Shown in pieces: positions 7,526 to 33,114 of a stretch of 33,811 nt of DNA (position 1 is its first letter; every line of letters starts with the position of its first letter). This DNA comes from Lachnospiraceae bacterium (GTDB taxonomy: Bacteria; Bacillota; Clostridia; Lachnospirales; Lachnospiraceae). The notes under the pieces were generated by a model. The model was not told where the DNA came from. It ran no database searches and saw only the letters and a program-made list of their open reading frames with translations. A program made the translations under genes and the position numbers. The stretch is taken from NCBI GenBank assembly GCA_024693545.1, contig JAILKT010000115.1:1-33811 (forward strand), written 5' to 3'.

Positions 7526-7573
7526 ACACTCCTCCTGTTCATAAGCCGGCAAAAGCTTCCTTGTTTACCCAAA

Positions 7574-9132: not shown

Positions 9133-9202
9133 TTCTTTGCCTCCTCTAAACATGTGTATGAAAACACATATCAGTTCTCATTCTAAAGTCATTAAAATTC
9201 TG

Positions 9203-11484: not shown

Positions 11485-13659
11485 TCAGATTTGTTGCGTA
11501 CTGTCAACAGTAATATTAAATGTACTGCATTTAATACCGGTCAGCTCGACACTTCTCTCATCCGGCTGTGAATCTCCGACAGAGACATTATAAACTCCCT
11601 TGTTAAGCTTCAAAATTCCGTCTTCATCAAAAAGTGCAAACGCTTCGTCGGTAAGACTGAGTTTTACAGTTTCTTTTGACCCCGACGCAAGTCTTATCTT
11701 CTTAAGAGCTTTAAGCTGCCGAACCGGCGCATCTTTTTCATCAAGGGAAACATATGCCTGAATTGTTACCCCGCCTTCAAATTTACCGGTATTTTCCACT
11801 GTAACAAAGACATCCAAAACATCACCTTTTTTGAATGATATATTTCCGGACACCTCTGCCCCGTTCAGTTCGAGCTTTTCTATCTTTTCATTGAAAGAAG
11901 TATAAGACAAACCGTAGCCGAAAGGATAGAACGGCTTTTCGGTCATATATCTGTAAGTTCTGCCTTTCATGGAATAATCGGTCGGATCGGGCAATACATT
12001 CTTTTCACTGTAGAATGTAACGGGCAGTTTTCCTTCGGGTGATTTGCATCCGAAGATTATCTGTGCAAGTGCGCGTCCGCCCTGTGCTCCGGGATAAAGA
12101 GCAAGAAGTGTGGCGGCAGCTTTTTCATAGGCGCTGTCGAGATAAAGAGCGCTGCCCGCAAGGCAAACTACGATCACGGGTTTACCCATCGAAGTAACTT
12201 CATCAAGTAATTTACCCTGTAATCCGGGAAGTTTAAGATTAGGTTTATCACCGCTTCCGTATTCGTTTCCGGTATCGCCTTCTTCACCTTCAAGCGAAGC
12301 ATCAAGACCTACGCAAAGGACTACTACATCGCTGAATTCACATACACTCTTAGCTTCGGCGATCCTGTCGCCCATCTCTGACAGATCGGACATCTTTTCT
12401 TTGTAAAGATGACATCCTTCCGAAACCATAACTCTGGTTCCCGTTCCCTTTACAGCCTCTCTGATCCCTTCAACGATCGTAACATATTCCGATGCGGTTC
12501 CTTCATAGTTACCGACAAGAGCTTTACGGTTATCGGCATTCGGACCGATCACGCCGATTGTCCTGATTTTGGAGGCATCCAAAGGAAGAATGCTGTTTTT
12601 ATTGTCAAGAAGTACAATACTCTCAAGTGAAGCTTTAAGATTAAGTGCTCTCGCCTCTTCCGTGTCAACATATGAGTAATCTATCTTATTGTATTCGTTA
12701 TCGGATGAATCGCCGAGTATTCCGAGCTTAAAACGTGTGGCAAGTACTCTGACAAGTGCCTTGTCAACTTTTTCCCAGGTCGTAAGTCCCTTCGCAACAG
12801 CATCTTCGAGATATTGATAAATGTTTCCGCAGTTCAGATCGCAGCCGTTGTTCATTGCAAGTGCGACCGATTCCGTAGGATTCTTTGTAACACCGTGATT
12901 GCCATGGAAGTCCTTGATCGCCCAGCAGTCAGAGGTAACATGGCCTTCGAATCCCCACTCATCACGAAGGATATCTTTAAGGAGCGTCTTACTTCCGCAA
13001 CATACTTCTCCGTTGGTACGGTTGTATGCGCCCATAACAGCCTCAACACCCGCTTCCTTAACAAGTGCCTTAAATGCGGGAAGATATGTCTCTCTCAGAT
13101 CCTGCTTATTACAAACAGCGTTGAATCCATGGCGTACAGCCTCAGGTCCCGAATGAACAGCAAAATGTTTTGCGCATGCGGCAGCCTTGAGATATTTGGG
13201 ATTCTTTCCCTGAATACCCTGTACAAACCTCACCCCAAGCCTTGATGTAAGATAAGGATCTTCCCCGTATGTCTCGTGACCGCGTCCCCATCTCGGATCC
13301 CTGAAAATATTGATGTTGGGTGCCCAGAAAGTAAGGCCTTTATATATACCGTGATCACCGTATTTGAACTGTCCCGCGTACTTTGCTCTTCCTTCGGTGG
13401 AAACAGTATCACCCACCTTTTCAAGAAGATCTTCATCAAATGTGGCAGCCAATCCGATTGCCTGAGGAAATACCGTGGCAATACCTGCACGAGCCACACC
13501 GTGAAGTGATTCGTTCCAGTAATTATATGCAGGGATTCCAAGCCTCTCGATAGCGGGTGCCCCGTGACGAAGCTGGTAAACTTTCTCTTCGGAAGTCATC
13601 TCTGCCACAAGCTTTGCGGCCTTTTCCTGGCATTCCAGCATGCGTTCCTTAGTGATCAT
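11485..13659 (-). CDS. GH3 beta-glycosidase, probable beta-xylosidase/beta-glucosidase
   Basis: GIPAYNYWNESLHGVARAGIATVFPQAIGLAATFDEDLL, KHFAVHSGPE, GAYNRTNGEVCCGSKTLLKDILRDEWGFEGHVTSDCWAI (GH3 nucleophile region), and a C-terminal domain with YPFGYGLSYTSF. No signal peptide. Confidence 0.92.
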   Translation of the reverse strand: MITKERMLECQEKAAKLVAEMTSEEKVYQLRHGAPAIERLGIPAYNYWNESLHGVARAGIATVFPQAIGLAATFDEDLLEKVGDTVSTEGRAKYAGQFKYGDHGIYKGLTFWAPNINIFRDPRWGRGHETYGEDPYLTSRLGVRFVQGIQGKNPKYLKAAACAKHFAVHSGPEAVRHGFNAVCNKQDLRETYLPAFKALVKEAGVEAVMGAYNRTNGEVCCGSKTLLKDILRDEWGFEGHVTSDCWAIKDFHGNHGVTKNPTESVALAMNNGCDLNCGNIYQYLEDAVAKGLTTWEKVDKALVRVLATRFKLGILGDSSDNEYNKIDYSYVDTEEARALNLKASLESIVLLDNKNSILPLDASKIRTIGVIGPNADNRKALVGNYEGTASEYVTIVEGIREAVKGTGTRVMVSEGCHLYKEKMSDLSEMGDRIAEAKSVCEFSDVVVLCVGLDASLEGEEGDTGNEYGSGDKPNLKLPGLQGKLLDEVTSMGKPVIVVCLAGSALYLDSAYEKAAATLLALYPGAQGGRALAQIIFGCKSPEGKLPVTFYSEKNVLPDPTDYSMKGRTYRYMTEKPFYPFGYGLSYTSFNEKIEKLELNGAEVSGNISFKKGDVLDVFVTVENTGKFEGGVTIQAYVSLDEKDAPVRQLKALKKIRLASGSKETVKLSLTDEAFALFDEDGILKLNKGVYNVSVGDSQPDERSVELTGIKCSTFNITVDSTQQI

Positions 13660-15619: not shown

Positions 15620-15648
15620 TTGATTGAAAATCAACCTTGTGATAAAAT
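15620..15648 (+). promoter_or_regulatory. Candidate promoter of second AraC regulator (TTGATT-N17-TAAAAT)
   Basis: -35 15620-15625, 17-nt spacer, -10 15643-15648. The -35 is one arm of TTGATT-GAA-AATCAA. Confidence 0.55.
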
Positions 15649-15689
15649 CAAAAGATGTGAACAACACAATAGCATTAACGGAGGCAACG

Positions 15690-16618: not shown

Positions 16619-18052
16619 TTAATCACTTTTACTGTTATCGACAAGAGCCTGTACTATTTCGGGATATCTTATAGTATTAGCTTTTCTGTCAAATATGCCG
16701 AAACGTTCGCCTGAACCGAAGAAAACGTTATTATCCCACCAGAAACAGGTAATACCGAATTCGCGGGCTTTTTTCACGTAATATCCCGCATAATCGGTTC
16801 TTGCCTCAAGATTTCCTCCTTTATCCCTGGCTCCGAATTCATCAATAACAACGCCGATCCCTTTATCAATAAATTTAAGCTTTAGCTTCAACATCAAATT
16901 GTTAATTTCCGCCGTGCTGCCGTTATCAAGTGAATTAAACATATCGGTACTGTTTGAATCGGTAGGTGAGGAAAGAGCAAAATTATAAGGCGAGTAGGCA
17001 TGCACTTCGACAAGTATCTTATTGTCAGCCGTATCAGCGGGCAAAACGAACTCGTCGCTGATCGCGGCATTCCACTGCGCCGCATAAGCCGGAACCAGAA
17101 GATATCTTTCGGCATTATTGCTGCCCTGTGCTCTTACAGTATCTACAAACAGCTGATTCAGTTCATTTATACACCTTACGGCATCATGACACATTTCGTT
17201 GTCAGAAAGTGACCATTCGTTTGACGTACCTACAAGTCTCGGTTCGTTAAGCGCTTCGAATATGAGGTGATCGTCATAGTCCTTAAATGTCTCTCCTACC
17301 TGCTCCCATATTTTTCTGACATAATTCTTCGATTGTTCAAGATATTCGCTTGTAGGATAAAAATATTCTTTTGAATTGTCATGATGGATATTTATCGTAC
17401 AATACATATCCCTCTCTATAACATAATCAACAATTTCTTTTACTCTATCAAGCCATGGTTTTTCAATGTTAAAATCCTTATCTACATGATTATGCCACGA
17501 AACAGGTATACGGATAGATTTAAAACCCGCCGATTTAAGCGTATCTATCATCTCCGGAGTAGTCCTTGCACCGCACCATGCCGTTTCAAGATCAAGGTTT
17601 GCACCGCTCTTGGCGCTGTTGTTCGCGTCCATTGTATTACCGAGGTTCCACCCGATCCGTAATTTTCTCACGAAAGCAAGAGCCCCGGTAAGACCTTGTA
17701 CATCATCATCTTCATGGACTATTTCCTTCGGTTCGGAGTTTTCTGTTTCGTCTTTTTCAGTTTCAGTACCCCCGGTGATATCCTTATCTGTGGTTTCCGT
17801 ATTATTCTTGTCCGTAGTTTCATCGGTAATATTTTCAATAGCCTCTTCGGTCCTGACTGTTATATTTTCCGATGAAACAGATTCTTTTACTTCTTGTTTT
17901 TTGTCTTCCTGATTATCTGTTTCCGTACTCAAAGTTTCTTTTACATCATTAGCTTTATTTCCCGAACCTGAGCAAGAAGAAATTGACCCGAGTATTAATA
18001 TAAGTACTAACAATAAGGCGGATATCTTTAATGTTTTAAACGTTCTGTTCAT
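16619..18052 (-). CDS. GH5 family secreted lipoprotein glycoside hydrolase (endoglucanase/xylanase-type)
   Basis: Lipoprotein signal MNRTFKTLKISALLLVLILILGSISSCSG, acidic S/T/E/D-rich linker, GH5 motifs GWNLGNTMDA, SIRIPVSWHNH, IFEALNEPR, VVIDEFGA. ATG 18052 with upstream AAAGGAA. Confidence 0.88.
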   Translation of the reverse strand: MNRTFKTLKISALLLVLILILGSISSCSGSGNKANDVKETLSTETDNQEDKKQEVKESVSSENITVRTEEAIENITDETTDKNNTETTDKDITGGTETEKDETENSEPKEIVHEDDDVQGLTGALAFVRKLRIGWNLGNTMDANNSAKSGANLDLETAWCGARTTPEMIDTLKSAGFKSIRIPVSWHNHVDKDFNIEKPWLDRVKEIVDYVIERDMYCTINIHHDNSKEYFYPTSEYLEQSKNYVRKIWEQVGETFKDYDDHLIFEALNEPRLVGTSNEWSLSDNEMCHDAVRCINELNQLFVDTVRAQGSNNAERYLLVPAYAAQWNAAISDEFVLPADTADNKILVEVHAYSPYNFALSSPTDSNSTDMFNSLDNGSTAEINNLMLKLKLKFIDKGIGVVIDEFGARDKGGNLEARTDYAGYYVKKAREFGITCFWWDNNVFFGSGERFGIFDRKANTIRYPEIVQALVDNSKSD

Positions 18053-18087
18053 GTTTTTTCCTTTCGAGCCTATAATTAATAAGTTTT

Positions 18088-18131
18088 CGGTTCTCGTCCC
18101 GCGAGAGCCGGCGCCTGACTTGGCACGGGCG
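18088..18131 (-). promoter_or_regulatory. GC-rich tandem-hairpin element in the predicted 5' leader of the GH5 gene
   Basis: Two adjacent inverted repeats, CGGTTCTCG/CGAGAGCCG (18088-18110) and CGCC/GGCG (112-115 and 128-131 of the 18 kb block), in an otherwise AT-rich intergenic region. Confidence 0.4.
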
Positions 18132-18196
18132 ATGTCTGTCGATACTGTGTTCAAAAAATTATCACAATTTGGAAACAATTTACCACTACGGTCTTA

Positions 18197-19823: not shown

Positions 19824-19849
19824 AAGAGTCGCCTGTTTAGGCGACTCTT
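19824..19849 (-). terminator. Intrinsic terminator of the double ABC-importer operon
   Basis: Perfect 10-bp stem AAGAGTCGCC-TAAACA-GGCGACTCTT followed by TTT on the minus strand, 20 nt after the SBP stop. Confidence 0.85.
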
Positions 19850-19870: not shown

Positions 19871-21382
19871 TCAATAGCTGTTTGCAACACCTACATAGTA
19901 ATCGATCTCATCCTTCATTTCTTCATACTGCTCCTGACCTGTCTTGGAGTCAATATTCCAGAAGTAAGAGTTGTCACGGTTAACGTTATCAACAAGAGGG
20001 AAGAGCTGAGGAATAGGATTCCTTGTAAGGATTTCAAGAGTCTCATCAACCGCACGAGTATCTCTGAACTGAGGATAGTATCCTGTCTTCCAATCGTCTA
20101 CATCCTCATATCCGGGAGTAGGATTTGTGTAAAGGTTGAATGCAAATGCGATCTTCCAAGCTCTGTCATCATCATAGATAGCAGGGATAACACGAAGATG
20201 ATCGTATGAGTAGCAAGTATAATCTGAAACTGCAGGTCCCTTAGGGAATACTACAAATCCAAAATCATCGGGAAGCTCTGCATTGTTGGCAACTCTGTAC
20301 TCCTCTGCTGCCTGAAGGGCAACCTCAGCATTAAGGAATGCTGTGTAAGGGAAGTCATACTGAGCACCTTCGGGAGCGGGGAGCTGATACTTAGCACGCA
20401 TATCTTTTGCCCAGTCCCAAGCCTGAATAAAGTTATCTGTACCTGTTGCATTTACAAATTTGCCTTCAGCATCACGCTCAATAATGAAAGCGTTATTTGA
20501 TGCAAGACAAGGTTTCATAAAGTCATAGTTTGTAGAGCACATAGCATATACATCGGGGATATCATCGCCGTTTGTATCACGTGTGAGCTTAGCACAAAGT
20601 TCTTCAAATGCTGCCCAATCCCATGTACCTGCTGCCTGCATATCATAAAGAGATTCGGGATCTACACCTGCTTCGGTAAGGAGTCTCTTGTTAAAGAAGA
20701 TACCTCCACGAGGCTCTGTTCTGTCTGCTCTCATACCATAGATGGAATCGCCGATCTTAAGGAGCTCTTTAGCTGACTTGTCCCACTTTTCCTCCGTAAA
20801 GTCAAGACAATCAAGTGTTGTAAGATCCTTATAAAGACCTGATCTGAAACCACTGAAACTTCTCTCGTCGCATACGAAAACATAGTTCTCATCGCCACCG
20901 GTTGTACAGAAGTTTGTAAGGAGTGAAGGATAGTCATTCCAGCTACCTATCGACTCTTCTTTAATAGTAAAGTTATAGGTCTTCTGAATCCAGTCACGGT
21001 AATTCTTGGTAGCCTCACCGTATGCTGTAGATTCATCGGGATCGGGGTTTGCCCACCAAGCTGCGATCTTAACTTCCATTCCGCCAAGATCTATGGGGTT
21101 GCCGTCAGCACCAACAATAACATCGGGGAATTCATCTTCCTCTTCTTCCTCTTCTTCCTCTTCAACATCAGCCCCATCATCAGGAGTATCAACGTCTGCA
21201 TCTGCAACATCAGTCGGTGCTTCTTCCTTCTTCTCGGTTTCGGAAGTTGTTGCTGTGTCCTTAGAGTCCGCTTCATTCGTTGTAGGTTCTGTCTTATCTC
21301 CGCCGCTCGAAGAACATGCCGCACATGAAAGAACGAGAACTAAGATCATGAAGAGCGCTACAAGCTTACTAGTCTTTTTCAT
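19871..21382 (-). CDS. ABC transporter extracellular solute-binding lipoprotein (family 1)
   Basis: Lipobox LVLVLSCAAC; acidic linker DVEEEEEEEEEDEFPD; SBP-like GGIFFNKRLLTEAGVDPESLYDMQAAGTWDWAAFEELCAKLTRDTNGDDIPDVYAM. Confidence 0.9.
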   Translation of the reverse strand: MKKTSKLVALFMILVLVLSCAACSSSGGDKTEPTTNEADSKDTATTSETEKKEEAPTDVADADVDTPDDGADVEEEEEEEEEDEFPDVIVGADGNPIDLGGMEVKIAAWWANPDPDESTAYGEATKNYRDWIQKTYNFTIKEESIGSWNDYPSLLTNFCTTGGDENYVFVCDERSFSGFRSGLYKDLTTLDCLDFTEEKWDKSAKELLKIGDSIYGMRADRTEPRGGIFFNKRLLTEAGVDPESLYDMQAAGTWDWAAFEELCAKLTRDTNGDDIPDVYAMCSTNYDFMKPCLASNNAFIIERDAEGKFVNATGTDNFIQAWDWAKDMRAKYQLPAPEGAQYDFPYTAFLNAEVALQAAEEYRVANNAELPDDFGFVVFPKGPAVSDYTCYSYDHLRVIPAIYDDDRAWKIAFAFNLYTNPTPGYEDVDDWKTGYYPQFRDTRAVDETLEILTRNPIPQLFPLVDNVNRDNSYFWNIDSKTGQEQYEEMKDEIDYYVGVANSY

Positions 21383-21477
21383 AAAACCTCTCTCTTTCTC
21401 ACCACTTGGGTGCTAAAATATTGAGTTCGCAATTAAGCAAACACATCAGCATCGAAAAATTTCCGACGCCAATTAAC

Positions 21478-21506
21478 ATTATAAATCAGCAGGTTAAAAG
21501 CGTCAA
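21478..21506 (-). promoter_or_regulatory. Internal promoter upstream of the distal SBP (TTGACG-N17-TATAAT)
   Basis: -35 21501-21506, 17-nt spacer, -10 21478-21483, immediately after the permease stop (21512). Confidence 0.7.
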
Positions 21507-21511
21507 GCAAC

Positions 21512-22519
21512 CTACATCTTGATACCTGTCGAAGAAAGAGATTCAACGAATCCTTTCTGAGCGATCAGGTATAACAGAATAATCGGAACGACAACAAGCA
21601 GCACGCCTGTAGCATTCATTTGTTGAAGTAAAGCTTCGGACGCAAGTCCGGTTCTTTGATTAACTATCTGATAATAATTGGTGTAATTATCGGCAAGCGA
21701 TGCAAGTCCCGTCGATAAGAGGTCTTTACCTCCGATGAAAAGTGCCGAATAAAAACTGTCGGTCCACTGCCATACAAATGAGAAGAGGAAACACGAAGTA
21801 ATGATCGGTTTCGCATCGGGAAGCATGATCCTGACAAATGTATAAAGTGTTCCGCATCCGTCAACATAAGCAGCTTCTTCAAGTTCCTTGGGAATACCGC
21901 GGAAGAACTGACGTACAAGGAAAATATAAAGACCGTTTTTGAGTCCCATACATCCGGCTGACATAAGGAAATAAGGAATAACGGAACCTCTCAGATTTAC
22001 CGCTGATCCTGTAAATGTTTCAAACAGTCCGAATACATCGAAGAATCTGAAGTGAAGGTAAAGGGGTGAAGAAATTGTCTGGGGCGGAATAAGAATAATA
22101 AGTATAACACACGCAAACCAAAATTTCTTAAGCGGGAAATTAAACCTCGCAAACCCGTAACCAACAAGCGTACATGCACAGATCTGAACTATCGATACGG
22201 CAATTGAGATCCAAAGCGAATTAAACAATGCCTTCCAATAGTTCATAAGTTCCATAACAACCGAATAATTGGCTGTCGTAAGATGACGCGGCAAAATATT
22301 TATGGTAGTGTCATAAAGATCCTTCTCTGTCATAATACTTACACAGAATTTGTTTACGATCGGTTCAAGGATCATAAAACAAAGACCGAAAATAAGCACA
22401 AATCTAAGTATCTTAAGCACAACAGAGCCGGTAGTCTTTTTCAAAAGATATCCACCGCTTAGTCTGTTTCTCTCACTGAAGGATCTGCGTCCTTCCACTG
22501 CTGCCTTTGCTTTACTCAT
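21512..22519 (-). CDS. Carbohydrate ABC transporter permease (MalG-like)
   Basis: EAA loop LEEAAYVDGCGTLYTFVRIMLPDAKP, multiple TM segments; start overlaps upstream permease stop (ATGAGTAA). Confidence 0.9.
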   Translation of the reverse strand: MSKAKAAVEGRRSFSERNRLSGGYLLKKTTGSVVLKILRFVLIFGLCFMILEPIVNKFCVSIMTEKDLYDTTINILPRHLTTANYSVVMELMNYWKALFNSLWISIAVSIVQICACTLVGYGFARFNFPLKKFWFACVILIILIPPQTISSPLYLHFRFFDVFGLFETFTGSAVNLRGSVIPYFLMSAGCMGLKNGLYIFLVRQFFRGIPKELEEAAYVDGCGTLYTFVRIMLPDAKPIITSCFLFSFVWQWTDSFYSALFIGGKDLLSTGLASLADNYTNYYQIVNQRTGLASEALLQQMNATGVLLVVVPIILLYLIAQKGFVESLSSTGIKM

Positions 22520-23420
22520 AATAGTACACCACCCTCGAAATTATTAGCGTAGATATACCGATCCAGGCTATAACCACTCCGAAATAGATCCAGGCCAGTG
22601 CCGATCCGTAACCAAAGTCAAGGTTACGCGTAACCTCTGTCTGAACCTGCTGTATTACCTGGTTGTCAGACTTCATGAAAAAGTCGATGATGGTATATAT
22701 CCAGTTTACAAGGAACATGGAGCTTATCATGGGGAAAGTGATCTTCCAAAGACTCTCCCACTTTGTACAACCTTCGATATCAGCAGCCTCATACATACTC
22801 TTCGGAATAGTCTGAAGTGCGGAAAGGAAAATGATTATCTGAATTCCCGAAGCAATGGCAATATCATAAACCGAATTAACAAGTTCAATTATCTTTTCTA
22901 CAAATCCGCTCGCCATATCGGTATTTGAAAGAATAATCTCAAGCGTATCGGCTATGCCCGAAGAGGATGATCCCTCTATCATCTCCTTCATGCCCGAAAG
23001 CAGCGTATTGTTATACTCAAGGCCTACAACAACACCGGAAGAAAAAATAACGGGAAGGAAGAATACGGCTCTTACAAAAGCTCTGCCCTTAAACTTCTGA
23101 TTTAACAGGAGCGCGATAAAGAAACTGAAAATGATCGTTGCCAAAGAGTTAAAGACCATCTTCGATATTTCCTCAAGGAGCATACGCGAAAAATTAGGAT
23201 CGATCGTAAGCGCTCTTTTATAGTTATCAAGTCCTGCATAAACGTTCTCAAATCCCTCGGCACCAACCTGCACATCCGAGAAAGACATAATGAGCGATTG
23301 GATAAGCGGCTTAACCATAAACAACAGGAAACCAAGCACAAACGGAAGTATAAACAAATATCCGAATATGGCTCTTCTTCCGAGAAGCGACATCTTCGTT
23401 TTTTTATTTACCTTAGCCAT
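22512..23420 (-). CDS. Sugar ABC transporter permease (MalF-like)
   Basis: FGYLFILPFVLGFLLFMVKPLIQSLIMSF; EAA loop MYEAADIEGCTKWESLWKITFPMI. ATG 23420 (MAKVNKK) with RBS GAGAGGTGA, or GTG 23429 overlapping the upstream stop (GTGA). Confidence 0.9.
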   Translation of the reverse strand: MAKVNKKTKMSLLGRRAIFGYLFILPFVLGFLLFMVKPLIQSLIMSFSDVQVGAEGFENVYAGLDNYKRALTIDPNFSRMLLEEISKMVFNSLATIIFSFFIALLLNQKFKGRAFVRAVFFLPVIFSSGVVVGLEYNNTLLSGMKEMIEGSSSSGIADTLEIILSNTDMASGFVEKIIELVNSVYDIAIASGIQIIIFLSALQTIPKSMYEAADIEGCTKWESLWKITFPMISSMFLVNWIYTIIDFFMKSDNQVIQQVQTEVTRNLDFGYGSALAWIYFGVVIAWIGISTLIISRVVYYYE

Positions 23421-23425
23421 ATATG

Positions 23426-25981
23426 TCACTCACCTCTCTTTACTACATAGTCCCTTGCGGGAACTTTCACACCATTTGAATCTATATCCTTATATGCGTA
23501 ATTAACATATACTTTAGTGCCGTCTTCATATTCTGTGATCCTCACACCACTGTCATCTACCGTGTGTCCGATCATCTTTTTATTTGAAACGCTGTCAAAA
23601 TCATTTTTGAAACGCTTATATATAGCAGCGGCTTTATCTTTCCACAGATCAAATGAGGAACCGTAGTATTCGGAATACATTGTTTCCTGTATCCTTTCGG
23701 GAGCACATTTCATAAACGTAAATGTGAGACCCGCACCAAATTCCGCAGACTTAAGTATCTCATATTCAAAGTCTTCGGAAAGGTTTATCGGAACGCCTGT
23801 ATAATCGACAAGATCGTGAATAGCCATCTCAAAGAAAGGAATATCATAATCTATGATCGCCATATTTGAATTACTGATATCCATCGATGTAACTACATCA
23901 GCATATTCAAGAGCATAATCATTGGCATGATTGACTATGGTACCCTTTTCGGATGCTAAAGAAAGTATCTCACATGAAATGTCTTTTGCTTCTTCTCTCG
24001 TAACCTTTTCCTTCGGGTTATAATCGCTGTTGAGCAAATAGCCTGTATATCGAAGTGCCATTCCGATATCGTATTCATCGGTAAATGACTTAAACTCATC
24101 GAAACATTCTTTCTTATATGAAGGCTTGACAAGATAATACGGATCGTTAAAATCTTCCTGTCCATACCAAACAATCGAATAATCGTAAAGTTCAGCCTGT
24201 TCTCTCGATACAAATTTTGCACCGTCACGGAATCCGATATAACCGTCCGTCATTCCCGAATCGTAAGCAAAATCAGTCTGTCCTTCAAGATAAAGTTTAA
24301 TTTTTCTCTCACGCAGCTTTTCCAGCATGTCTTTAAAATCACTTTTGCCGCCGAGTTTCGATATAAGATCAACATCTTTTAATACATAGTGTTTAACACC
24401 ATCGTTTATCGCACCGGTTAGCTTAAGATCAAAATCGTCAACTCCGAGGTTCTTAAGTTCATCAACAATTTCAACCGTTTCATCATAAGTAGTAAGTTCA
24501 AGCGGCTGCTTATACGGAATTCCGGCTGTCTGCTGAACTTTATCTATCGCTCCTATTACTTCAATGACCGCAGGCAATCCTTCATCCTTTTTCGATCCGA
24601 GCGAAGGATACCTTTCAAGAAGATATTGTCTGTATACTCCGGCCATATCGCTGTAATTATCTTCACTTCCGAATCTGTATCTCTGAGAGATATTCTGCTT
24701 CGGAAGTGTTTCCTCATAAACATAGAATGTTGCATTAGATCTCTCGGTAACATCGTAAGACTCATAATGTATAAACGAATATCCGGCATCGGCATGATTA
24801 TAACTGTCGAAACGTCCGCTGACATCTGCGGTTATATTGGCATAGGAGGCTCCATCTTCAAGCATACACAGGAACGAAGCACCGTTTTTCGACATTCCGA
24901 ACATGGGGAATGAATTTCTTGTCTCGGTAACAACGGATGTTCTCGAAGAACAGTAATCCCATCCGTAAACATTAGCATAATAAGGATTCTGACCGAATCT
25001 TCCGTTATTAAATTCAATAACGGCTCCGCCGCTTTCCGGAACAACGATAAATCCTTCATCTTCGGTACTGCCTGCACCGAAATAAGGTAAGATTTCAATA
25101 TTTGTTATAGGATAATCGGGTTTAAATTCAACCTTATCCATTGGTACATTGACTATAAGATCACGTCCGTCAAGCTTATATTCAACCGAAATATTAAAAA
25201 GCGGAATATCCTCCGACTTCTTGGTCGAATAACGTGACAAATGCGCCTGATACTGTTCTTCTGTATAACCGGCCTCCCAGAAATACTTCTCAATTGCTGC
25301 TTTCAAATGCTGAGCAACACCGTCACGAAGTATATAAAGCTTCATATCTGCAAGATCGGGATAACTTTCAAGAAGTTCTTCTTTATTATCCGATGCTCTC
25401 AGATTATTGATATCTGTCTTTCTGTAATACTCTTTAACCTGTTTGGCGGCTTTCTTCTCCATATTTTTGGTAATGGCTTTAAAATCCTTTTCGGGAAGTG
25501 CAAGGGGAATTTTAAATTCTTTCTCTGTATTACCGATCGTATAATTGACCGTGATCGAATCCTTACCCTCTTCTATCTCAAAGATTCCCTTATCAATACT
25601 GTATGCACAGTTATTATAAGTGGTAAGGATACCCTTTATATTTCCGTAAGTAATATAGAGCGTTGACTTAAGATTGGCCTTTTTATCAAGCGTGGGCGCA
25701 AGAGGATCATTGTCTGCTTCTGCGGGATTGGATTCCCAAACGGCTCCCGTAGCTTTATCCGTAACAGAGAAACGCGAAGTAGCTCGGTCCATCGAAAAGA
25801 TAAGGTCATCGTTTTCCATCACGGCAATACCTTCTCCGGGCGATCCTCCTCTGATCTCGATCTCAACAGGCGCCGCCTCTTCGGGCTGGATCATATAAAC
25901 AAACAAGACAATAAGACCCAAAACTGCTATCGGGATAACGATATTCAGTATAGTTTTAATCCAGGATTTCTTTCCTTTCAC
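23426..25981 (-). CDS. Large membrane-anchored protein, DUF5696-like; glycoside-hydrolase-like architecture
   Basis: N-terminal TM anchor (IVIPIAVLGLIVLFVYMI), N-terminal beta-rich region (FSMDRATSRFSVTDKATGAVWESNP), central barrel-like alternation (LTTYDETVEIVDELKNLGVDDFDLKLTGAINDG...), C-terminal ITEYEDGTKVYVNYAYKDIDSNGVKVPARDYVV. The DUF number is from memory of similar neighbourhoods, not a search. Confidence 0.7.
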   Translation of the reverse strand: MKGKKSWIKTILNIVIPIAVLGLIVLFVYMIQPEEAAPVEIEIRGGSPGEGIAVMENDDLIFSMDRATSRFSVTDKATGAVWESNPAEADNDPLAPTLDKKANLKSTLYITYGNIKGILTTYNNCAYSIDKGIFEIEEGKDSITVNYTIGNTEKEFKIPLALPEKDFKAITKNMEKKAAKQVKEYYRKTDINNLRASDNKEELLESYPDLADMKLYILRDGVAQHLKAAIEKYFWEAGYTEEQYQAHLSRYSTKKSEDIPLFNISVEYKLDGRDLIVNVPMDKVEFKPDYPITNIEILPYFGAGSTEDEGFIVVPESGGAVIEFNNGRFGQNPYYANVYGWDYCSSRTSVVTETRNSFPMFGMSKNGASFLCMLEDGASYANITADVSGRFDSYNHADAGYSFIHYESYDVTERSNATFYVYEETLPKQNISQRYRFGSEDNYSDMAGVYRQYLLERYPSLGSKKDEGLPAVIEVIGAIDKVQQTAGIPYKQPLELTTYDETVEIVDELKNLGVDDFDLKLTGAINDGVKHYVLKDVDLISKLGGKSDFKDMLEKLRERKIKLYLEGQTDFAYDSGMTDGYIGFRDGAKFVSREQAELYDYSIVWYGQEDFNDPYYLVKPSYKKECFDEFKSFTDEYDIGMALRYTGYLLNSDYNPKEKVTREEAKDISCEILSLASEKGTIVNHANDYALEYADVVTSMDISNSNMAIIDYDIPFFEMAIHDLVDYTGVPINLSEDFEYEILKSAEFGAGLTFTFMKCAPERIQETMYSEYYGSSFDLWKDKAAAIYKRFKNDFDSVSNKKMIGHTVDDSGVRITEYEDGTKVYVNYAYKDIDSNGVKVPARDYVVKRGE

Positions 25982-26052
25982 GAGTACATCCTCCTCTTAA
26001 GAAACAGAATAAATACTGTTTCCGTGCCGAAAATTTAATCTATGTATCAGAT

Positions 26053-26733
26053 TTAGTACAATCTAAAGATCACTTCTCTGTAAAGAGAATAAAAATATGC
26101 TCCGGCGTCGCTGATCAAACTGAAGAAAAGTAACAACAGGAATATGACCACTGCCATGCCGACAAAAGTAAACAAAATAACAAGTATTGTTTTGCCTATT
26201 GAATAAGCATGCACCATCATGATAGCAGAAATAAACAACAGCGCCGCCCATACGATAGAAAAATCATGGAAGAAATAATTAAACGTATCCTCTTCTTCCG
26301 CAAGGAAATTACTGAGAATGGTATTCGGTATAACGATCAAAGGATAAGGCGTCATGGCATAAGCCGAAGAGATCCAAACATCCTTAAGTGTTCCTTTTCC
26401 GTCAAACAGTGTAGTGAGTGCCCAGTTTGTAATTACAAAGATAATGAACGGAAGAAGGATTCCGAGCATTTCTATCAGGAAATTCGCACGTTCAAGGTTA
26501 ACTTTGATAAACTGAAACGTTGTAAATTCAAGTCTGAATACGGAAGTGAGCAGAGAGAGTATCAAAATAAAGTTAGCTGCCGCAAGACTACCTCTTTTTT
26601 CATGTGTCAGATCCCAGAATCCGTCAAAGGGATGAACGATCACGTATAACGCATATCGAAGGCTCTTGAAAAATCTGTCATATGCAGCTCTGTTTGTAAA
26701 GAAATCAATTATTCTTCTTGCTGTCGTTTTCAA
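26053..26733 (-). CDS. YIP1-family-like multi-pass membrane protein
   Basis: About 5 TM segments; YVIVHPFDGFWDLTHEKRGSLAAANFIL and WISSAYAMTPYPLIVIPNTILSNFL resemble YIP1-domain proteins. TTG start at 26733 with RBS GGAGGTGA inside the upstream gene. Confidence 0.7.
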   Translation of the reverse strand: MKTTARRIIDFFTNRAAYDRFFKSLRYALYVIVHPFDGFWDLTHEKRGSLAAANFILILSLLTSVFRLEFTTFQFIKVNLERANFLIEMLGILLPFIIFVITNWALTTLFDGKGTLKDVWISSAYAMTPYPLIVIPNTILSNFLAEEEDTFNYFFHDFSIVWAALLFISAIMMVHAYSIGKTILVILFTFVGMAVVIFLLLLFFSLISDAGAYFYSLYREVIFRLY

Positions 26734-28201
26734 ATGCCTTCACCTCCCATCTGACTTTTTTGATCCTTCCGATCAAAAGTGGTACTACAAGTACAAGTAT
26801 GATAACAATAAATATTAAGACTATATGATCTTCAACCCATTGTTTTCGGTACAGCTGAAAAGCATCTCCGTAATTCTTGTCCGAATATTTAATTTTGAAA
26901 TACGACATTGCTTCTTCATATTTATCCTGCCTTAGCAGCGCTCGTCCGATGCCCTTATAAGCAAGCTCATTATTACCGTTGATCATAAGAACTTCTTTCC
27001 ACTCTTCGGCCGACTTGTCATACCTGCCTTGCTGATACTCATATATGGCAGAGAATATCTTTTTCCCGTAGAATGTAGGCGTCAATACTGTAAGCTGTGC
27101 ATCCTGAGAATCAAGGACTAAAAGATCATGTCCCATATGTTCGAGCGCGGTCGGCATTCTGAAATATCCGTCTTTGTTACCGTTACCACCAAAACAGCAA
27201 AGGATGTTGCCCTGATCATCATAACCGAATATTCTTCCTCTGATACGATCGAGAGCAAAATAAGTTCCGTCATCAAGAGCTGTTATATCAACCATTCTTG
27301 ACGCACCGGTGTAAACACCCTCATCGGCCCAGTTCAGATCACCTATAACAACCCAATCACCGTTTTGAACAAGGATATCATTTCCGAGTGAATTCAGTCT
27401 TCTGATAGGATCGACCGAACCATCACTGAGAGAACCCTCATAAAAGTTTGCGGTGACAACATACATAAACCCTTCATTATCTGTCGCGATATTATCATAC
27501 TCCGTAGGAACGAAGTCACTCATGGCATCTGCCTGAGCGTCCGATGCGATCCATGTCTTCCATATATAATCGAGCAGATCGTACGTAACAGGTGTGGCCC
27601 CGACGAAACCGTTAAATTTCCCGTCATTTTCGTATTTAACGATTCCCTTATTAACACGTTTAACAAGACAGAACACTCTGTCGGCACCGTCAACGATGAT
27701 TTTTGAAGGAAGGAATGTAATACTCTGATCAAAGTTTATATCATCGGGTTTTGTAAACTCCATGACAAACTGCAGATCCTTTGTAAGCTTAACTATCCTG
27801 TTATTCTCGGTATCGGCGATAAAGTAATGCTCATCGGTAACAAATATATCATTGGGCGAATTAAAAGTATTAAGCTCCGCTCCTTCGAATGAATCAATGA
27901 TCTCTTTAACGTTATACTCTTCATCAACGCATTCAATAACGATGATCCTGTTATTTCCGGTATCACATATGTATATGAGATTATCTTTTACGAACAATCC
28001 CTGAGCCTTTGACAGTTTATCTTCGAGACCGAGTTCAATATGAGTTAAAGTCTTTTTTACAGCATAAGGATTGGGTGAATGAATCTCTTCACCCCAAAAA
28101 TCATAGTTATACGAATAACCTGAATCTGCGTTAGATAAGGCAGCAGGCGAAGCCGCAGCCAAAACAAGAACAAGAGCTGTGAGTACTGCTATTTTCTTCA
28201 T
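26705..28201 (-). CDS. Exported NHL-type beta-propeller plus TPR protein with C-terminal TM anchor
   Basis: Signal peptide MKKIAVLTALVLVLAAASPAALSNA; repeats GLFVKDNLIYICDTGNNRIIVIE and DIFVTDEHYFIADTENNRIVKLT; TPR-like YDKSAEEWKEVLMINGNNELAYKGIGRALLRQDKYEEAMSYFK; TM DHIVLIFIVIILVLVVPLLIG. ATG 28201, RBS GAGGTGA. Confidence 0.8.
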   Translation of the reverse strand: MKKIAVLTALVLVLAAASPAALSNADSGYSYNYDFWGEEIHSPNPYAVKKTLTHIELGLEDKLSKAQGLFVKDNLIYICDTGNNRIIVIECVDEEYNVKEIIDSFEGAELNTFNSPNDIFVTDEHYFIADTENNRIVKLTKDLQFVMEFTKPDDINFDQSITFLPSKIIVDGADRVFCLVKRVNKGIVKYENDGKFNGFVGATPVTYDLLDYIWKTWIASDAQADAMSDFVPTEYDNIATDNEGFMYVVTANFYEGSLSDGSVDPIRRLNSLGNDILVQNGDWVVIGDLNWADEGVYTGASRMVDITALDDGTYFALDRIRGRIFGYDDQGNILCCFGGNGNKDGYFRMPTALEHMGHDLLVLDSQDAQLTVLTPTFYGKKIFSAIYEYQQGRYDKSAEEWKEVLMINGNNELAYKGIGRALLRQDKYEEAMSYFKIKYSDKNYGDAFQLYRKQWVEDHIVLIFIVIILVLVVPLLIGRIKKVRWEVKAFENDSKKNN

Positions 28202-28211
28202 GCGCGTCACC

Positions 28212-29102
28212 TCAATCCTTAATACCCGAGCTTGCCATTGTTTCAAGTATCTGGCTCTCGGAAATAACAAACAACAAAATGGGAACGATCATGGTTACAA
28301 CAGAAACTGCAGCAGCCTGACCGGTCCTGGCAACACCGCCGAGGGAAACCTGTGAAAGAGCATAAACAAGCGCTTTCTTTTCCTCAGAGTAAATATAAAT
28401 CGAAGCGGGATTGTTCCAAAGACTCTGAACAGAGAAAATGATCATTGTAAGCCAGGCAGGTTTAACATTGGGCATTACTATCCTGGTAAATACATACCAT
28501 TCAGTAGCACCGTCAACCTTAGCGGCTTCAATCAGGGCAGTTGGCAATCCCTCCATAAACTGTTTCATTAGGAAAACACCCATAGGCGAAGCAAATGCAG
28601 GAATGATGATCGCAAGCAATGAGTCGATCAAATTGAGTGAATTCATGATGATATAGTTGGGGATCATCAGAATCGAGCCTGTAAACATAAGTGCCGTAAC
28701 AACTACACCGAATAAAAACTTGCTTCCGGGGAAATTATATTTTGCAAGCACGAACGCAGCCATCGATCCGATAAGCAGATGACCTGCCGTTCCGACAGCG
28801 GTTGTAAACAACGTGTTGAAAATATAACGCGAAAACGGAACCGTTGACTTGTTCATTGAAACGAACAGATCCGTAAAATTATCAAAGCTCGGGTTCTTAG
28901 CAAAGAACGTGGGCGGGAAACGGAACAATTCGTCCATTGGCTTTAGCGATTGATTGATCGCAAACAAAAGCGGAGCCACCATGATACAAGACATGATCGC
29001 AAGGAAAATATAGATACCTATATCTCCTCCTCTTGAACGGTTAGGCTGTCGCCGACGAAGTATCTTCGGTTTTTTGTGATAAGGCTTAGTAGATGTTTTC
29101 AT
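28212..29102 (-). CDS. Carbohydrate ABC transporter permease (MalG-like)
   Basis: EAA loop IEAAKVDGATEWYVFTRIVMPNVKPAWLTM; six-TM pattern. Start ATG 29102 or ATG 29120. Confidence 0.9.
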   Translation of the reverse strand: MKTSTKPYHKKPKILRRRQPNRSRGGDIGIYIFLAIMSCIMVAPLLFAINQSLKPMDELFRFPPTFFAKNPSFDNFTDLFVSMNKSTVPFSRYIFNTLFTTAVGTAGHLLIGSMAAFVLAKYNFPGSKFLFGVVVTALMFTGSILMIPNYIIMNSLNLIDSLLAIIIPAFASPMGVFLMKQFMEGLPTALIEAAKVDGATEWYVFTRIVMPNVKPAWLTMIIFSVQSLWNNPASIYIYSEEKKALVYALSQVSLGGVARTGQAAAVSVVTMIVPILLFVISESQILETMASSGIKD

Positions 29103-29184
29103 ATTAATCTCTCTCTCCATACAGAAGCTGTTTTATAACATCTTCAGTTTCCTCGCGTTAAACACGGCAAATAAATTATTTTTG

Positions 29185-30123
29185 TTAATGACCTACTCTT
29201 CTGAGCAGTGCCTGAATTGCCTTGTTGCAAAGTATCATCGCAAGGAAAAGAATTGTAGCGATTGCCGAAGCATAACCCATTTCAAATCGCGTAAAACCGT
29301 AATCGTAAAGGTGGGTAACTATAGTACGTGCAGCGTAATCCGTACTGGGATATCCGCAAAGTGCCATTGTCTGCGCGCTGACGCCGAACGAAGAAGTAAT
29401 TGCCATAACTGCACCAAACAAAAGCATGGGCTTCATGTTCGGAAGTGTTATATACCAAAGTTCCTGCCATCTGTTCTTTACACCGTCAATATATCCGGCT
29501 TCATATTGGGCTTTATCAACACCTTGAAGTCCGGCTACAAAGCCGAGGAATCCGGCGCCCATCGAAAGCCACAGCAGAACTGCGATTATCAGTCCCATCA
29601 TATAATCCGGGTTTGTAAGGAAAAATATAGGTTCGTTTATTATGCCCACATCGATCAGCATACCGTTTACATATCCGTATGCATCACCTCTGAAGAAGAT
29701 CGAGAAAATATAGTAAATATTTCCGGCGATCGACGGTGAATAGAACATAATAACAACTATCGCACGCAGCCATTTGGGAAGCTCGTTGATAAACCATGCG
29801 CATACAAACTGGAGCATATATCCGATAGGTCCCGTAATAACTGCGATAATGAATGTATTTTTAATAGCGATCAGGAATACATCATCCTGCAATATCAGAT
29901 TGATGTAATTCTGAAGGAATATAAATTTCGGTGGTTCCAAAATGTTGTAGTACGTAAAGCTGTAATATATTGACGAAAAGATCGGCAATATATAGAAGGT
30001 GAAAAAGAGTACAAAAAACGGAAGCAGGAATAAGTAGCACGTCTTCATGGACTTTGCTTTCTTCCACGCAATACGCATATTGTTCTTTTTCATACTTACA
30101 TATGATTTTGCAAACGATGACAT
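29185..30123 (-). CDS. Sugar ABC transporter permease (MalF-like)
   Basis: CYLFLLPFFVLFFTFYILPIFSSIYYSFTYYN; EAA-like YEAGYIDGVKNRWQELWYITLPNMKPM; ATG 30123 with RBS GGAGGA. Confidence 0.9.
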   Translation of the reverse strand: MSSFAKSYVSMKKNNMRIAWKKAKSMKTCYLFLLPFFVLFFTFYILPIFSSIYYSFTYYNILEPPKFIFLQNYINLILQDDVFLIAIKNTFIIAVITGPIGYMLQFVCAWFINELPKWLRAIVVIMFYSPSIAGNIYYIFSIFFRGDAYGYVNGMLIDVGIINEPIFFLTNPDYMMGLIIAVLLWLSMGAGFLGFVAGLQGVDKAQYEAGYIDGVKNRWQELWYITLPNMKPMLLFGAVMAITSSFGVSAQTMALCGYPSTDYAARTIVTHLYDYGFTRFEMGYASAIATILFLAMILCNKAIQALLRRVGH

Positions 30124-30189
30124 AGCATCCTCCTCCAAAAGAGCGTATCATAGATAACTCGCTTAATTATCTGTAACGTTAAAATAATG

Positions 30190-33114
30190 TCAATCGGTAT
30201 CCAGACCGTATTCCTTACGTTTCTTAGTGATCTCTTCATTGATCGTTCTTGTATAGTCAAGAAGTACTTCTCTCTGATCAAGCTTTTGATTAACAACCTT
30301 TCGTACGGCATTGGTCAAATGACGGCTTGTATAGTAACCACCGGCAATCTCTCTGAAACCCCTTGCCCATTTTCTCTGTTCTTCAAGGACCTTGATCTGA
30401 TCGGCACTCCATGCAAGCTGTTTAAATGCCACATCATTTGCGGTTGCATATCTTGCAGCCGATCCCATAACAGACTCAAGCTCTCGGCCGTATCTAACCT
30501 GTGTTTCCGATTTTGCCCACCATTTCATGAATGTCCAGGCATTATTTCTGATCTTATCATTATCCGTCTTTATCATCATGGAGCATTGACCCCATCCGTG
30601 AACGGATCTGTCTATATATTCCTGTCCGTTTTCATCTGTTTTCTTTACACCGGGAAGAGGCATGAAATCCCAGAGTCCGCGAAGTTCGGGTGCAGAAAGG
30701 ACAAGCGTATTGAATGTATTATAATCCGCAATACCGATCGGCACTTCACCCGAACGGAATCTTGTTACGAAATCAAGCTCGAGCGGAATACCGTAATCTA
30801 CAAACAGACTTGTAAATTGGGTGAACGCCTGAACACTTTCCTCATTATCTATCTGTATCTTTTTGCCTTCGTCATCATAAAAGTCGCCGCCATGCTGATA
30901 TGTCATAGATATCAGTAATGAAAGGTCGGGATTGATAACGTTACCTATCTTACGTTCTGTTGAAGGAACTGCAAGAGTCATACTGTTACCCTGTATGGTA
31001 GGCAGCATATTTATGAGATCATCCCATGTCTGAGGCGGTTCAAGACCAAGTTCCTCAAGAATATCCTTGCGATAGAACATAACGTTGTAATTAAGTGTCT
31101 CGGGAAGTGCATACATACCGCCTTCAAAAAGATAAGAACGATACGAACTGAGCGGGTACTCCGAAAGGACTTCATCAAGATCGGGGAACTGCGAAAGATC
31201 TTCTACCGCATTACGAAGAGCGTAATTTACAGGATCCTGCTGCGGTGCTGTAAGAACAACATCGGGACCCTTTCCGGCAACAACCGCGGGAAGAAGTGCA
31301 TCGGCTTGAATAAGCTGAACATTGACCTTAATTCCTGTTTCCTGAGTAAAAGTATCATCAACCATCATCTTCATGATGTCATTTTGATCACGACCTGCAA
31401 GAAGCCATACTTCGATCGTATCTTCATCGTCCTCATCATATACATCTCCGATCGAGTTGTAATCGTAGAAGAACGATACAAAGAATGATTTGATGTCATG
31501 CCAGAGATTCGAGAAGAAGCCTGCGTCATCATCGACTTTTTCAGAATCCTTTCCCTGAACGATCATATAATCAATATCAAGCTTGCTCTCGCTGATCGTA
31601 TTGATCGAAGTACCGAGCGCTGCAATATTCTCTTTGAAGTTGGAAAGTGTTTTGGTTATATCACGGGGATCATTGTTAAATCTTTCAAGCTGCGAAGCAA
31701 GGGTTATCGCATTTGCGATCTGATCGGACTTCTCACCCGTGATGGCAATATAATCATCGACAGTCTTAAAGAGCCTTTTACTCTCAAGACCCATCGCCTC
31801 GATGATATCGGGATATACTTCTTTGATATTATAATCTCTGTGAGCATCGGGATTTGTTCCGGTAAGTACGATCAGTTTTCTGTAAATAAGATTAAGACGG
31901 TAAACACTGTCCGAAAGATCGTTAAGTACCTGTCCGAGATCTCCGAGGGTTGCTTCGAGTCTTATGGTATGTTTACCCTTTGTAAGGTAGAAATCATAAG
32001 GATCTTCGTTTTTATCCGAAAGGGTTATCATATCCCAATCGGTATTATATACAAAGCCGATAGCTCTGGCCTCTTCAAAAGGAAGCTGACCGTCTATCGT
32101 GATCTTTCTGGAAGAAATGCCGCCACGCTGGTATCCCTGACGACCTTTGATAGTGATATTATAAAATCCGTCGCCGGGCACATCAAATTCCCATTCTATC
32201 CATTGTCCGGGAACCTTCCATGCGTCACCGCCGATATAATTCAGTTTTGTAGTAGTAATACTGTATGGATCGGTATTGGATACAGATTTATCAAAACGAG
32301 CATAAAGAGAGGCATCGGAACGTCCCGTCGCATTCTCTCCGTCAACCTTAACGACGTACGAAAGGGACTCCGGAGAGGCGCTCATTCCATTATGATCCTT
32401 TGAATACTGAGAATAATCATAATCTGCATTGATCGGTAAGAAATCAAGTGATTTAATGATGACTGGCTCGTTAACTGCCTTAAGAGAAATAATATTTTTT
32501 CCTTCATCAAGCCAAAATCTGTAGGGCTCTATCTCATATCCGAGATAATCGGAGAACATACTCTCCTGCCACTCAAATTTTTCAACCTGTGAAGGACGAA
32601 GCTCGTTTCCTCTGTTATCTGTCCTGACTTCGCTTCCGTTGGTCCAGATACGGGAAAACGCAAGATCTTCGGCTCCGACAAATGGAACCTCTCCGTTTAT
32701 CCTGAATTCTCTTTCGATATCAACGCCTCTGCTCTGTACAGGATAATAATTAATAGAAACATTATAAAGACCGGACTGAGGTGCGTTAACCTCCCAGGTA
32801 ACATCCGAACTGTCACCGGTGTATAAAACATGATCCACACCGTCACATTCGTCCATTACTTCACAATCGACCGCTTCAAAATAATCTGCAGCTTCAATAG
32901 AAAATCCTTCCGTAGCAAGTGCCGAAGACTCATGTTCAAGCTTAAAAAGCTTGTATGTGTTTTCACGGCCAAGTCCACGTACGTCATATGAAAGGTCTGT
33001 TCCTTCGTATTTTTTCAAAAAATTATCTTCTTCAAAAAGTCCTAAGATCAAAACAAAACCGATAATAAAAACAACAATGGCAGCAAATACGATCAGTCCC
33101 TTAGCCTTTTTCAC
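30190..33114 (-). CDS. Composite TM-anchored protein: two CBM-like beta-sandwich repeats fused to a C-terminal family 1 solute-binding domain
   Basis: GTG start with RBS AGGAGG; TM anchor KGLIVFAAIVVFIIGFVLILGLF; duplicated modules; SBP domain from IEVWLLAGRDQNDIMKMMVDDTFTQETGIKVNVQ through ALPETLNYNVMFYRKDILEELGLEPPQTWDDL. Confidence 0.88.
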   Translation of the reverse strand: MKKAKGLIVFAAIVVFIIGFVLILGLFEEDNFLKKYEGTDLSYDVRGLGRENTYKLFKLEHESSALATEGFSIEAADYFEAVDCEVMDECDGVDHVLYTGDSSDVTWEVNAPQSGLYNVSINYYPVQSRGVDIEREFRINGEVPFVGAEDLAFSRIWTNGSEVRTDNRGNELRPSQVEKFEWQESMFSDYLGYEIEPYRFWLDEGKNIISLKAVNEPVIIKSLDFLPINADYDYSQYSKDHNGMSASPESLSYVVKVDGENATGRSDASLYARFDKSVSNTDPYSITTTKLNYIGGDAWKVPGQWIEWEFDVPGDGFYNITIKGRQGYQRGGISSRKITIDGQLPFEEARAIGFVYNTDWDMITLSDKNEDPYDFYLTKGKHTIRLEATLGDLGQVLNDLSDSVYRLNLIYRKLIVLTGTNPDAHRDYNIKEVYPDIIEAMGLESKRLFKTVDDYIAITGEKSDQIANAITLASQLERFNNDPRDITKTLSNFKENIAALGTSINTISESKLDIDYMIVQGKDSEKVDDDAGFFSNLWHDIKSFFVSFFYDYNSIGDVYDEDDEDTIEVWLLAGRDQNDIMKMMVDDTFTQETGIKVNVQLIQADALLPAVVAGKGPDVVLTAPQQDPVNYALRNAVEDLSQFPDLDEVLSEYPLSSYRSYLFEGGMYALPETLNYNVMFYRKDILEELGLEPPQTWDDLINMLPTIQGNSMTLAVPSTERKIGNVINPDLSLLISMTYQHGGDFYDDEGKKIQIDNEESVQAFTQFTSLFVDYGIPLELDFVTRFRSGEVPIGIADYNTFNTLVLSAPELRGLWDFMPLPGVKKTDENGQEYIDRSVHGWGQCSMMIKTDNDKIRNNAWTFMKWWAKSETQVRYGRELESVMGSAARYATANDVAFKQLAWSADQIKVLEEQRKWARGFREIAGGYYTSRHLTNAVRKVVNQKLDQREVLLDYTRTINEEITKKRKEYGLDTD

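Follow-up and report, generated by a model that had tools for sequence, protein, structure and literature searches.

A conserved locus with two CUT1-type importers and a propeller, YIP1 and DUF5696 core in a Lachnospiraceae bacterium

Gene content and order of the locus

The window, the whole 33,811-nucleotide stretch of contig JAILKT010000115.1 that was analysed, comes from a Lachnospiraceae bacterium whose assembly has 172 contigs and is 84% complete. An ORF check of positions 19871-33114 found nine reading frames, all on the minus strand, as is every feature located below, in the order SBP974, F1, G1, NHL/TPR propeller, YIP1, DUF5696, F2, G2 and SBP503. When each gene is taken from the earliest start codon that the ORF caller gives, intergenic distances lie between -59 and +129 nt, in agreement with the nine minus-strand genes and short gaps or overlaps reported in a preliminary description of this DNA. 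A hairpin of 11 pairs (19824..19849), terminator-like on both strands, lies just past the last module gene.

Each half of the locus has the composition of a CUT1 importer, with a solute-binding protein (SBP) and two BPD_transp_1 permeases carrying an EAA loop. The preliminary description had recognised these parts, which were corroborated by Pfam and by an alignment of about 40 loci in which the EAA loop is kept in all four permease families. In the first half (putative importer 1), SBP974 (xloE-like, 30190..33114; Pfam SBP_bac_1, 84.5 bits at 578-872) consists of an N-terminal membrane anchor that lacks a lipobox, two beta-sandwich domains (CBM35/golvesin-like), a helical region and a C-terminal CUT1 solute-binding domain. 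Its AlphaFold model has a pLDDT of 87, and its closest solved relative by sequence is Lin1841, an SBP for beta-1,2-glucooligosaccharides (E 1.4e-31). The permeases of this half are F1 (xloF-like, 29185..30138; 56 bits), the best-conserved component with a mean pairwise identity of 0.63, and G1 (xloG-like, 28212..29120; 54.5 bits), whose residues E198, D203 and G204 are invariant across loci. The second half (putative importer 2) contains the permeases F2 (axoF-like, 22512..23429; 32.6 bits) and G2 (axoG-like, 21512..22519; 48.2 bits) and the lipoprotein-like SBP503 (axoE-like, 19871..21382; SBP_bac_1, 28.9 bits), which is the least conserved component (mean pairwise identity 0.29) and has a lipoprotein-like Cys23 in 21 of 22 sequences.

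The two halves had been described as mirror images, which is true of the SBPs, as only these are outermost. The permeases, on the other hand, stand in direct repeat (F-G, F-G), and SBP503 is an ordinary SBP, different from the multi-domain SBP974. F1 and F2 are only 25% identical (BLASTP E 1e-5) and G1 and G2 only 26% (E 2e-21); therefore, the two halves did not arise by recent duplication, and these identities together with the direct-repeat order rule out the mirror duplication of a single importer.

Three membrane-associated core genes lie between the halves. The first encodes an NHL beta-propeller and TPR protein (26705..28270; Pfam NHL 34.3 bits, weak TPR) with an N-terminal signal segment and a C-terminal transmembrane segment (hydrophobic segments 21-48 and 476-507); its reading frame opens upstream, and the true start is probably the Met near residue 24. 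The second encodes a YIP1-domain membrane protein (26053..26733; Pfam Yip1 42.6 bits) with about five hydrophobic segments; many relatives have it joined to the propeller/TPR protein, as in the fused NHL-TPR-Yip1 proteins of loci L228 and L220. An ABC transporter with a genetically linked Yip1-domain membrane protein is also known from the YknWXYZ system of Bacillus, where the Yip1-family protein YknW works with the transporter and modulates assembly of the YknXYZ complex (PMC4887032), although YknWXYZ is a MacB-like efflux pump and the module described here is of the CUT1 importer type. YknW was the only informative case in the literature searched on Yip1 proteins with sugar transporters, and the Paenibacillus JDR-2 transcriptome paper mentions neither Yip1 nor NHL. 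The third core gene, for DUF5696, is considered separately below.

Conservation and inheritance of the module

Among 120 loci collected with permease F1 as search anchor, 83 have exactly the same nine-gene order; most of the others are truncated at a contig end or encode YIP1 and the propeller as one fused protein. In a sample of 398 genomes from the phylum, SBP974 occurs in all 41 that are DUF5696-positive and in only two of the 357 that are negative, each time on a contig of roughly 4 kb (p about 6e-54). The conservation of order and this co-occurrence rule out a chance neighbourhood. Nor is the cluster restricted to Lachnospiraceae, as loci were found across about 20 family groups and in Treponema; one copy is carried on a Paenibacillus plasmid.

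The conserved synteny predicted in the preliminary description was borne out: almost all complete loci that were examined have the core together with two CUT1 permease pairs. Its placement of the core midway between two equal importers has to be revised. In 13 of 20 further loci, from a few family groups, propeller/YIP1-DUF5696-F2-G2, usually with SBP2, is present without a nearby SBP974-F1-G1, and among the loci examined no importer 1 lacking the core and importer 2 was found beyond the cases explained by contig ends. Since these 13 loci carry the core and F2-G2 without importer 1, the core genes belong, judging from gene neighbourhoods, to importer 2, an assignment that is new here.

The module is inherited as a unit. 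Where a genome has two modules, each keeps its components within one lineage; for example, every component of the window module is closest to the same-genus genome L035, and those of the second copy are all closest to L034. Lineage consistency was judged by this nearest-relative agreement and not by clustering; when the components were clustered into three or four groups the agreement was moderate (ARI about 0.6-0.9), perhaps reflecting differing cut-points. Mirror-tree correlations of 0.85-0.97, calculated with no outside control, are those expected for any co-inherited operon.

It could be argued that the locus is simply two ordinary CUT1 importers with bystander membrane genes, the core performing an unrelated envelope or stress function. 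The study of the orthologous locus in Caldicellulosiruptor (Anaerocellum) bescii treats it in this way, with 'X' and 'GH129' simply listed beside two CUT1 transporters (PMC8579813). However, bystander genes would be lost or exchanged, whereas the core remains linked to importer 2 in about 20 family codes, even where the gene order is permuted or the units are dissociated, and its lineage is consistent, which makes this explanation improbable.

The DUF5696 protein and its active site

DUF5696 (23426..25981; Pfam DUF5696 585.7 bits) is membrane-anchored, and its AlphaFold model (pLDDT 85.4) has the GH129/GH101 fold by structure comparison, with Foldseek matches to ZgGH129 (5opq, E 1.6e-32) and NagBb (5wzr, E 1.7e-24). 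It shares the overall fold with these enzymes at 11-14% identity; unlike them, it sits in a transporter operon, is anchored to the membrane and does not conserve the catalytic pair. The catalytic Asp of NagBb is Asp435 (PMC5698469), and we assigned the acid/base Glu column from a conserved SSEE motif and two intermediates. At these nucleophile and acid/base columns the window protein has Y645 and N684 and the C. bescii-like orthologue has Thr/Thr, and acids occupy both columns in only 2 of 110 DUF5696 sequences (7 of 133 in a wider set). DUF5696 is thus a GH129/GH101 fold without the conserved catalytic pair, a finding that is new here (DUF5696 is not named in any paper of the literature searched), and the alignment suggests that its catalytic residues have been lost and that its active site is degenerate.

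These data weaken the earlier suggestion that the core trims glycans, and with it the possibility that DUF5696 is an active extracellular GH129-like glycosidase acting on oligosaccharides before import. Such a role is implied by the 'GH129' label in C. bescii and would fit the fold itself, and stand-alone relatives (L169 and L170) retain both Asp and Glu. Since Asp or Glu occupies the nucleophile column in 84 of the 110 sequences, certain members could still be enzymes that use another acid/base residue. Nevertheless, given the rarity of the full pair, the residues found in the window and C. bescii-like proteins, and the GH129 activities in the literature surveyed, which concern alpha-GalNAc and 3,6-anhydro-galactose and not xylan, we regard trimming by DUF5696 as unlikely. 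For the same reason, the 'GH129' gene of the C. bescii xylan locus should not be taken as a working glycosidase.

Substrate, ATPase supply and a proposed mechanism

The module lies among genes for a GH5 (16619..18178; Pfam Cellulase 196 bits), a GH3 (11485..13659), a GH115 of the xylan alpha-glucuronidase family (4622..7552) and a GH67 of the alpha-glucuronidase family (1..1896, running off the contig); a GH5 gene is also found near the orthologous module of L035. Its arrangement has partly been published already, as the transporter part of the C. bescii xylan degradation locus (XDL, Athe_0174-0185), in which xloEFG-X-'GH129'-axoFGE and xylanases form one co-regulated operon induced on xylan (PMC8579813). 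The orthologous genes follow the same order, X corresponding to propeller/YIP1 and 'GH129' to DUF5696, and both loci lack an ATPase gene and have a xylan context. The XDL operator ACTAGTAAACGCTTACGATA occurs once, with no mismatch, just upstream of the module in three Caldicellulosiruptor-like genomes, and this exact match together with the gene order allows the XDL operon to be equated with the module. In C. bescii, propeller and YIP1 form one fused protein and the genes run on into the xylanases, whereas the window has a separate YIP1 gene and a looser grouping of xylan enzymes, together with AraC regulators. The XynR operator was found next to the module only in those three genomes. Other copies adjoin GH130, GH26, GH31, GH43 or CBM65 genes, or flavin oxidoreductases, which indicates that xylan is not the general substrate; for the window module, (glucurono/arabino-)xylan fragments are the most likely substrate, judging from its neighbours and the C. 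bescii orthologue.

The lack of a nucleotide-binding subunit in the window, as first described, extends to the whole contig (C76), where family searches of the genome found no ABC ATPase match, with 84 PF00005 matches elsewhere. The shared MsmX/UgpC-type ATPase proposed in its place gained support from a UgpC-like gene above the family cut-off (G000:C75, 502.7 bits), a ugpC gene adjoining the module on the Paenibacillus plasmid and the C. bescii xylan transporters, which are assigned to the shared ATPase MsmK and whose host grows poorly on xylan when msmK is deleted (PMC8579813). In this the module would resemble the MsmX/MsmK/UgpC-dependent CUT1 importers (such as A. bescii Athe_0595-0598, PMC12838199), which have an SBP, two permeases, no dedicated ATPase in the locus and a shared one elsewhere, but such simple importers have no propeller, YIP1, DUF5696 or long multi-domain SBP.

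We propose, with a probability of about 0.6, that the locus is an operon-like, inherited unit of two CUT1 importers for the uptake of oligosaccharides from plant polysaccharides, the second with a dedicated accessory core. Importer 1 would be SBP974-F1-G1 and importer 2 F2-G2-SBP503, both powered by an MsmX/MsmK/UgpC-type ATPase encoded elsewhere. The core of importer 2 would comprise the anchored propeller/TPR protein, its YIP1 partner and the anchored GH129-like DUF5696; the DUF5696 barrel and the propeller would bind glycan chains and/or SBPs at the external face of the membrane and pass oligosaccharides to F2-G2, and YIP1 may hold the complex at the permease, by analogy with YknW and YknXYZ. 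SBP974, anchored and with extra sugar-binding-like domains, would take longer or different fragments for F1-G1.

More tentatively, the propeller/TPR-YIP1, DUF5696 and F2-G2-SBP2 may be an obligate uptake machine of Gram-positives and some spirochaetes, to which SBP974-F1-G1 would be added as a second importer. It would then be a CUT1 importer with its own extracellular complex for docking, based on a non-catalytic glycosidase fold, a cytoplasmic-membrane counterpart of surface glycan-capture systems. A sensing device, in which one of the permease/SBP sets would work with the propeller and YIP1 to signal extracellular glycan to the cell instead of importing it, is very improbable, as the EAA loops that contact the ATPase are kept in all four permeases and the two-component or AraC regulators near some copies, including the window, have no consistent linkage.

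An SBP, two permeases and an ATPase are usually considered sufficient for an ABC oligosaccharide importer. In this module, three further proteins accompany one of the permease pairs in almost all complete loci that were examined, from about 20 bacterial family groups. If the core is part of the importer, the textbook account of CUT1 transport would be incomplete for many fibre degraders, and the orthologue in C. bescii, a host open to genetic work, could serve as a test case. The hosts of the module include gut, rumen and thermophilic biomass degraders.

Gene content and spread of the module

All nine reading frames of the module were found on the minus strand at 19871-33114, as the preliminary description had placed them, and Pfam upheld their identities (SBP_bac_1, BPD_transp_1 in the four permeases, NHL plus weak TPR, a long SBP, DUF5696 with 585.7 bits and Yip1 with 42.6 bits). 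They run in the order SBP974-F1-G1-propeller-YIP1-DUF5696-F2-G2-SBP503, in which SBP974-F1-G1 is importer 1, F2-G2-SBP503 (SBP2 in other loci) is importer 2 and the three genes between them are the core. The mirror symmetry previously proposed was not borne out: the order is not mirrored, the permease pairs are only 25-26% identical and the two SBPs are unlike in architecture. The reported absence of an ATPase was confirmed, with zero ABC ATPase matches on the window's contig. One strong UgpC/MsmX-type gene was found in the same genome (contig C75, 502.7 bits, above cut-off), and in Paenibacillus cellulosilyticus ugpC lies directly upstream of the module. Since the EAA loop is kept in all four permeases, both pairs should, judging from sequence, engage an ATPase.

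The DUF5696 search covered 150 genomes of the window's family, 43 of which passed the Pfam cut-off. The 120 profile-annotated loci came from DUF5696-positive genomes of this family (40) and from an independent scan anchored on F1 (80); the two sets overlap in some genomes, and pairs such as L050/L136 and L041/L114 look identical. The preliminary description had called for conserved synteny of the core with two permease pairs, and the exact nine-gene order was present in 83 of these loci; in most of the others the contig or the fetched stretch ends early, SBP2 is not recognisable or YIP1 is fused to the propeller protein. In 398 genomes of the phylum, DUF5696 was found in 41, all with SBP974, and full-length SBP974 occurred in only two of the 357 DUF5696-negative genomes, both times on contigs of ~4 kb (Fisher p 6e-54, which overstates independence given the relatedness of the genomes). 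Most of the 20 distant-family loci have the core and both permease pairs; the exceptions are L204, cut by a contig end, and L203, an importer-2-plus-core unit. In L208, L209, L212 and L214 the block order is permuted, with propeller/YIP1-DUF5696-F2-G2 first and SBP974-F1-G1 second. The system is real and strongly conserved, and one published locus already shows its arrangement; in the literature searched there appears to be no description of how general the module is, of the core being tied to importer 2 or of the degenerate active site of DUF5696.

Named hosts in the F1-anchored scan are Butyrivibrio, other Lachnospiraceae, Epulonipiscium, Christensenellaceae and Treponema. Because Treponema is among them, with F1 61-65% identical to that of the window (Treponema/Spirochaetaceae loci L145, L146, L148, L150, L153 and L154), horizontal movement of the whole unit between phyla is suggested. 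Where a genome has paralogous modules, the nearest relatives of the components of one module sit together, either in a single foreign module or in closely related ones: all components of the window's module match L035, and all those of the second copy in this genome (G000:C44) match L034. Component identity matrices correlate at 0.85-0.97, as expected for co-inherited genes and without an outside control. Mean identity is 0.63 for F1, 0.60 for G1 and lowest for SBP503 (0.29), a pattern consistent with a machine that stays constant while its specificity protein varies. In L202 (G245:C20), about six successive SBP2-like reading frames come after the module, which looks like amplification of this specificity protein.

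The core and its partner importer

In two family groups (f62 and f48) DUF5696 copies outnumber those of SBP974, as in G207 (10 versus 4). Twenty further loci were taken from genomes with such an excess and from one other; 13 have propeller/YIP1-DUF5696-F2-G2, in most cases together with SBP2, but no SBP974-F1-G1 close by (contig ends limit a few of them), and seven have the full set. No SBP974-F1-G1 block without the core was found in the loci examined except at contig ends. Therefore, importer 2 is the one to which the core belongs, and importer 1 the separable partner.

A signal segment lies at the N-terminus of the propeller/TPR protein and a transmembrane segment at its C-terminus, and YIP1 has about five hydrophobic segments. 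As for the mechanism of the core, we infer that these two proteins act together, because they are frequently fused in relatives. In Bacillus, the assembly of an ABC transporter is modulated by YknW, which belongs to the Yip1 family (PMC4887032); the likeness of YknW to YIP1 here is one of role and not evidence of membership.

The AlphaFold model of DUF5696 (pLDDT 85) has GH129 and GH101 enzymes as its best structural matches, in agreement with profile-profile comparison to GH129 relatives. Asp435 of NagBb is catalytic and conserved in ZgGH129 (PMC5698469). Catalytic columns were read from a joint alignment including two intermediates in which Asp and Glu are retained; the Glu column was assigned here from the conserved SSEE motif. 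The window's protein has Tyr645/Asn684 at these positions and a C. bescii-like orthologue Thr/Thr. Because both columns are acidic in only 2 of 110 DUF5696 sequences, and in 7 of 133 in a wider set, we read most members as probably serving non-catalytic glycan handling, and some may be active. Shorter stand-alone relatives (L169:676-2358 and L170:727-2481, both plus strand; 166-181 bits) retain the full GH129-type catalytic pair and match the models of GH101 and DUF6259 as well; they may be active enzymes and may stand between GH129/GH101 and transporter-linked DUF5696.

Xylan and other glycans

The xylan degradation locus (XDL) of Caldicellulosiruptor bescii, xloEFG-X-GH129-axoFGE followed by xylanases, contains two CUT1 importers, and on xylan its proximal genes are induced about 10- to 100-fold and the distal ones 4- to 9-fold (Rodionov et al., PMC8579813). 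The XDL transporter genes of C. saccharolyticus also respond to xylan-rich biomass (PMC5658599). The published XDL operator (PMC12285236) has one mismatch-free occurrence in each of three genomes, all of one family. In G312 it lies ~170 bp upstream of SBP974, after which come F1, G1, a fused propeller-YIP1, DUF5696, F2, G2, SBP2 and a GH43 enzyme, which ties the XDL directly to the module.

The window also encodes GH67, GH115, GH3, GH5, a GDSL esterase-like protein and AraC regulators, and these neighbours point to glucuronoxylan as the substrate here. Other copies adjoin genes for other glycans; thus, the module is a platform not limited to xylan. The two AraC-like regulators, at 2226-3143 and 15624-16586 (both plus strand), are interspersed with the xylan genes, the second being identified by sequence resemblance only, and a three-gene 2-oxoacid:ferredoxin oxidoreductase set (POR, TPP enzyme and POR_N) occupies 7850-10258 (minus strand) in the same neighbourhood. 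In the second module of this genome (G000:C44), the gene after G2 encodes a protein of 646 aa in which CBM65-like matches occur three times (L033:17318-19258). Related loci include L034, L040, L044 and L045, and of 76 downstream neighbours examined in relatives 10 match CBM65, which suggests that the module has a partner that binds glycans at the cell surface. On a Paenibacillus cellulosilyticus plasmid (L220:15874-25097), genes for four LLM-class flavin-dependent oxidoreductases come after the module and alternate with those for two SBPs, a context unusual for a sugar importer.
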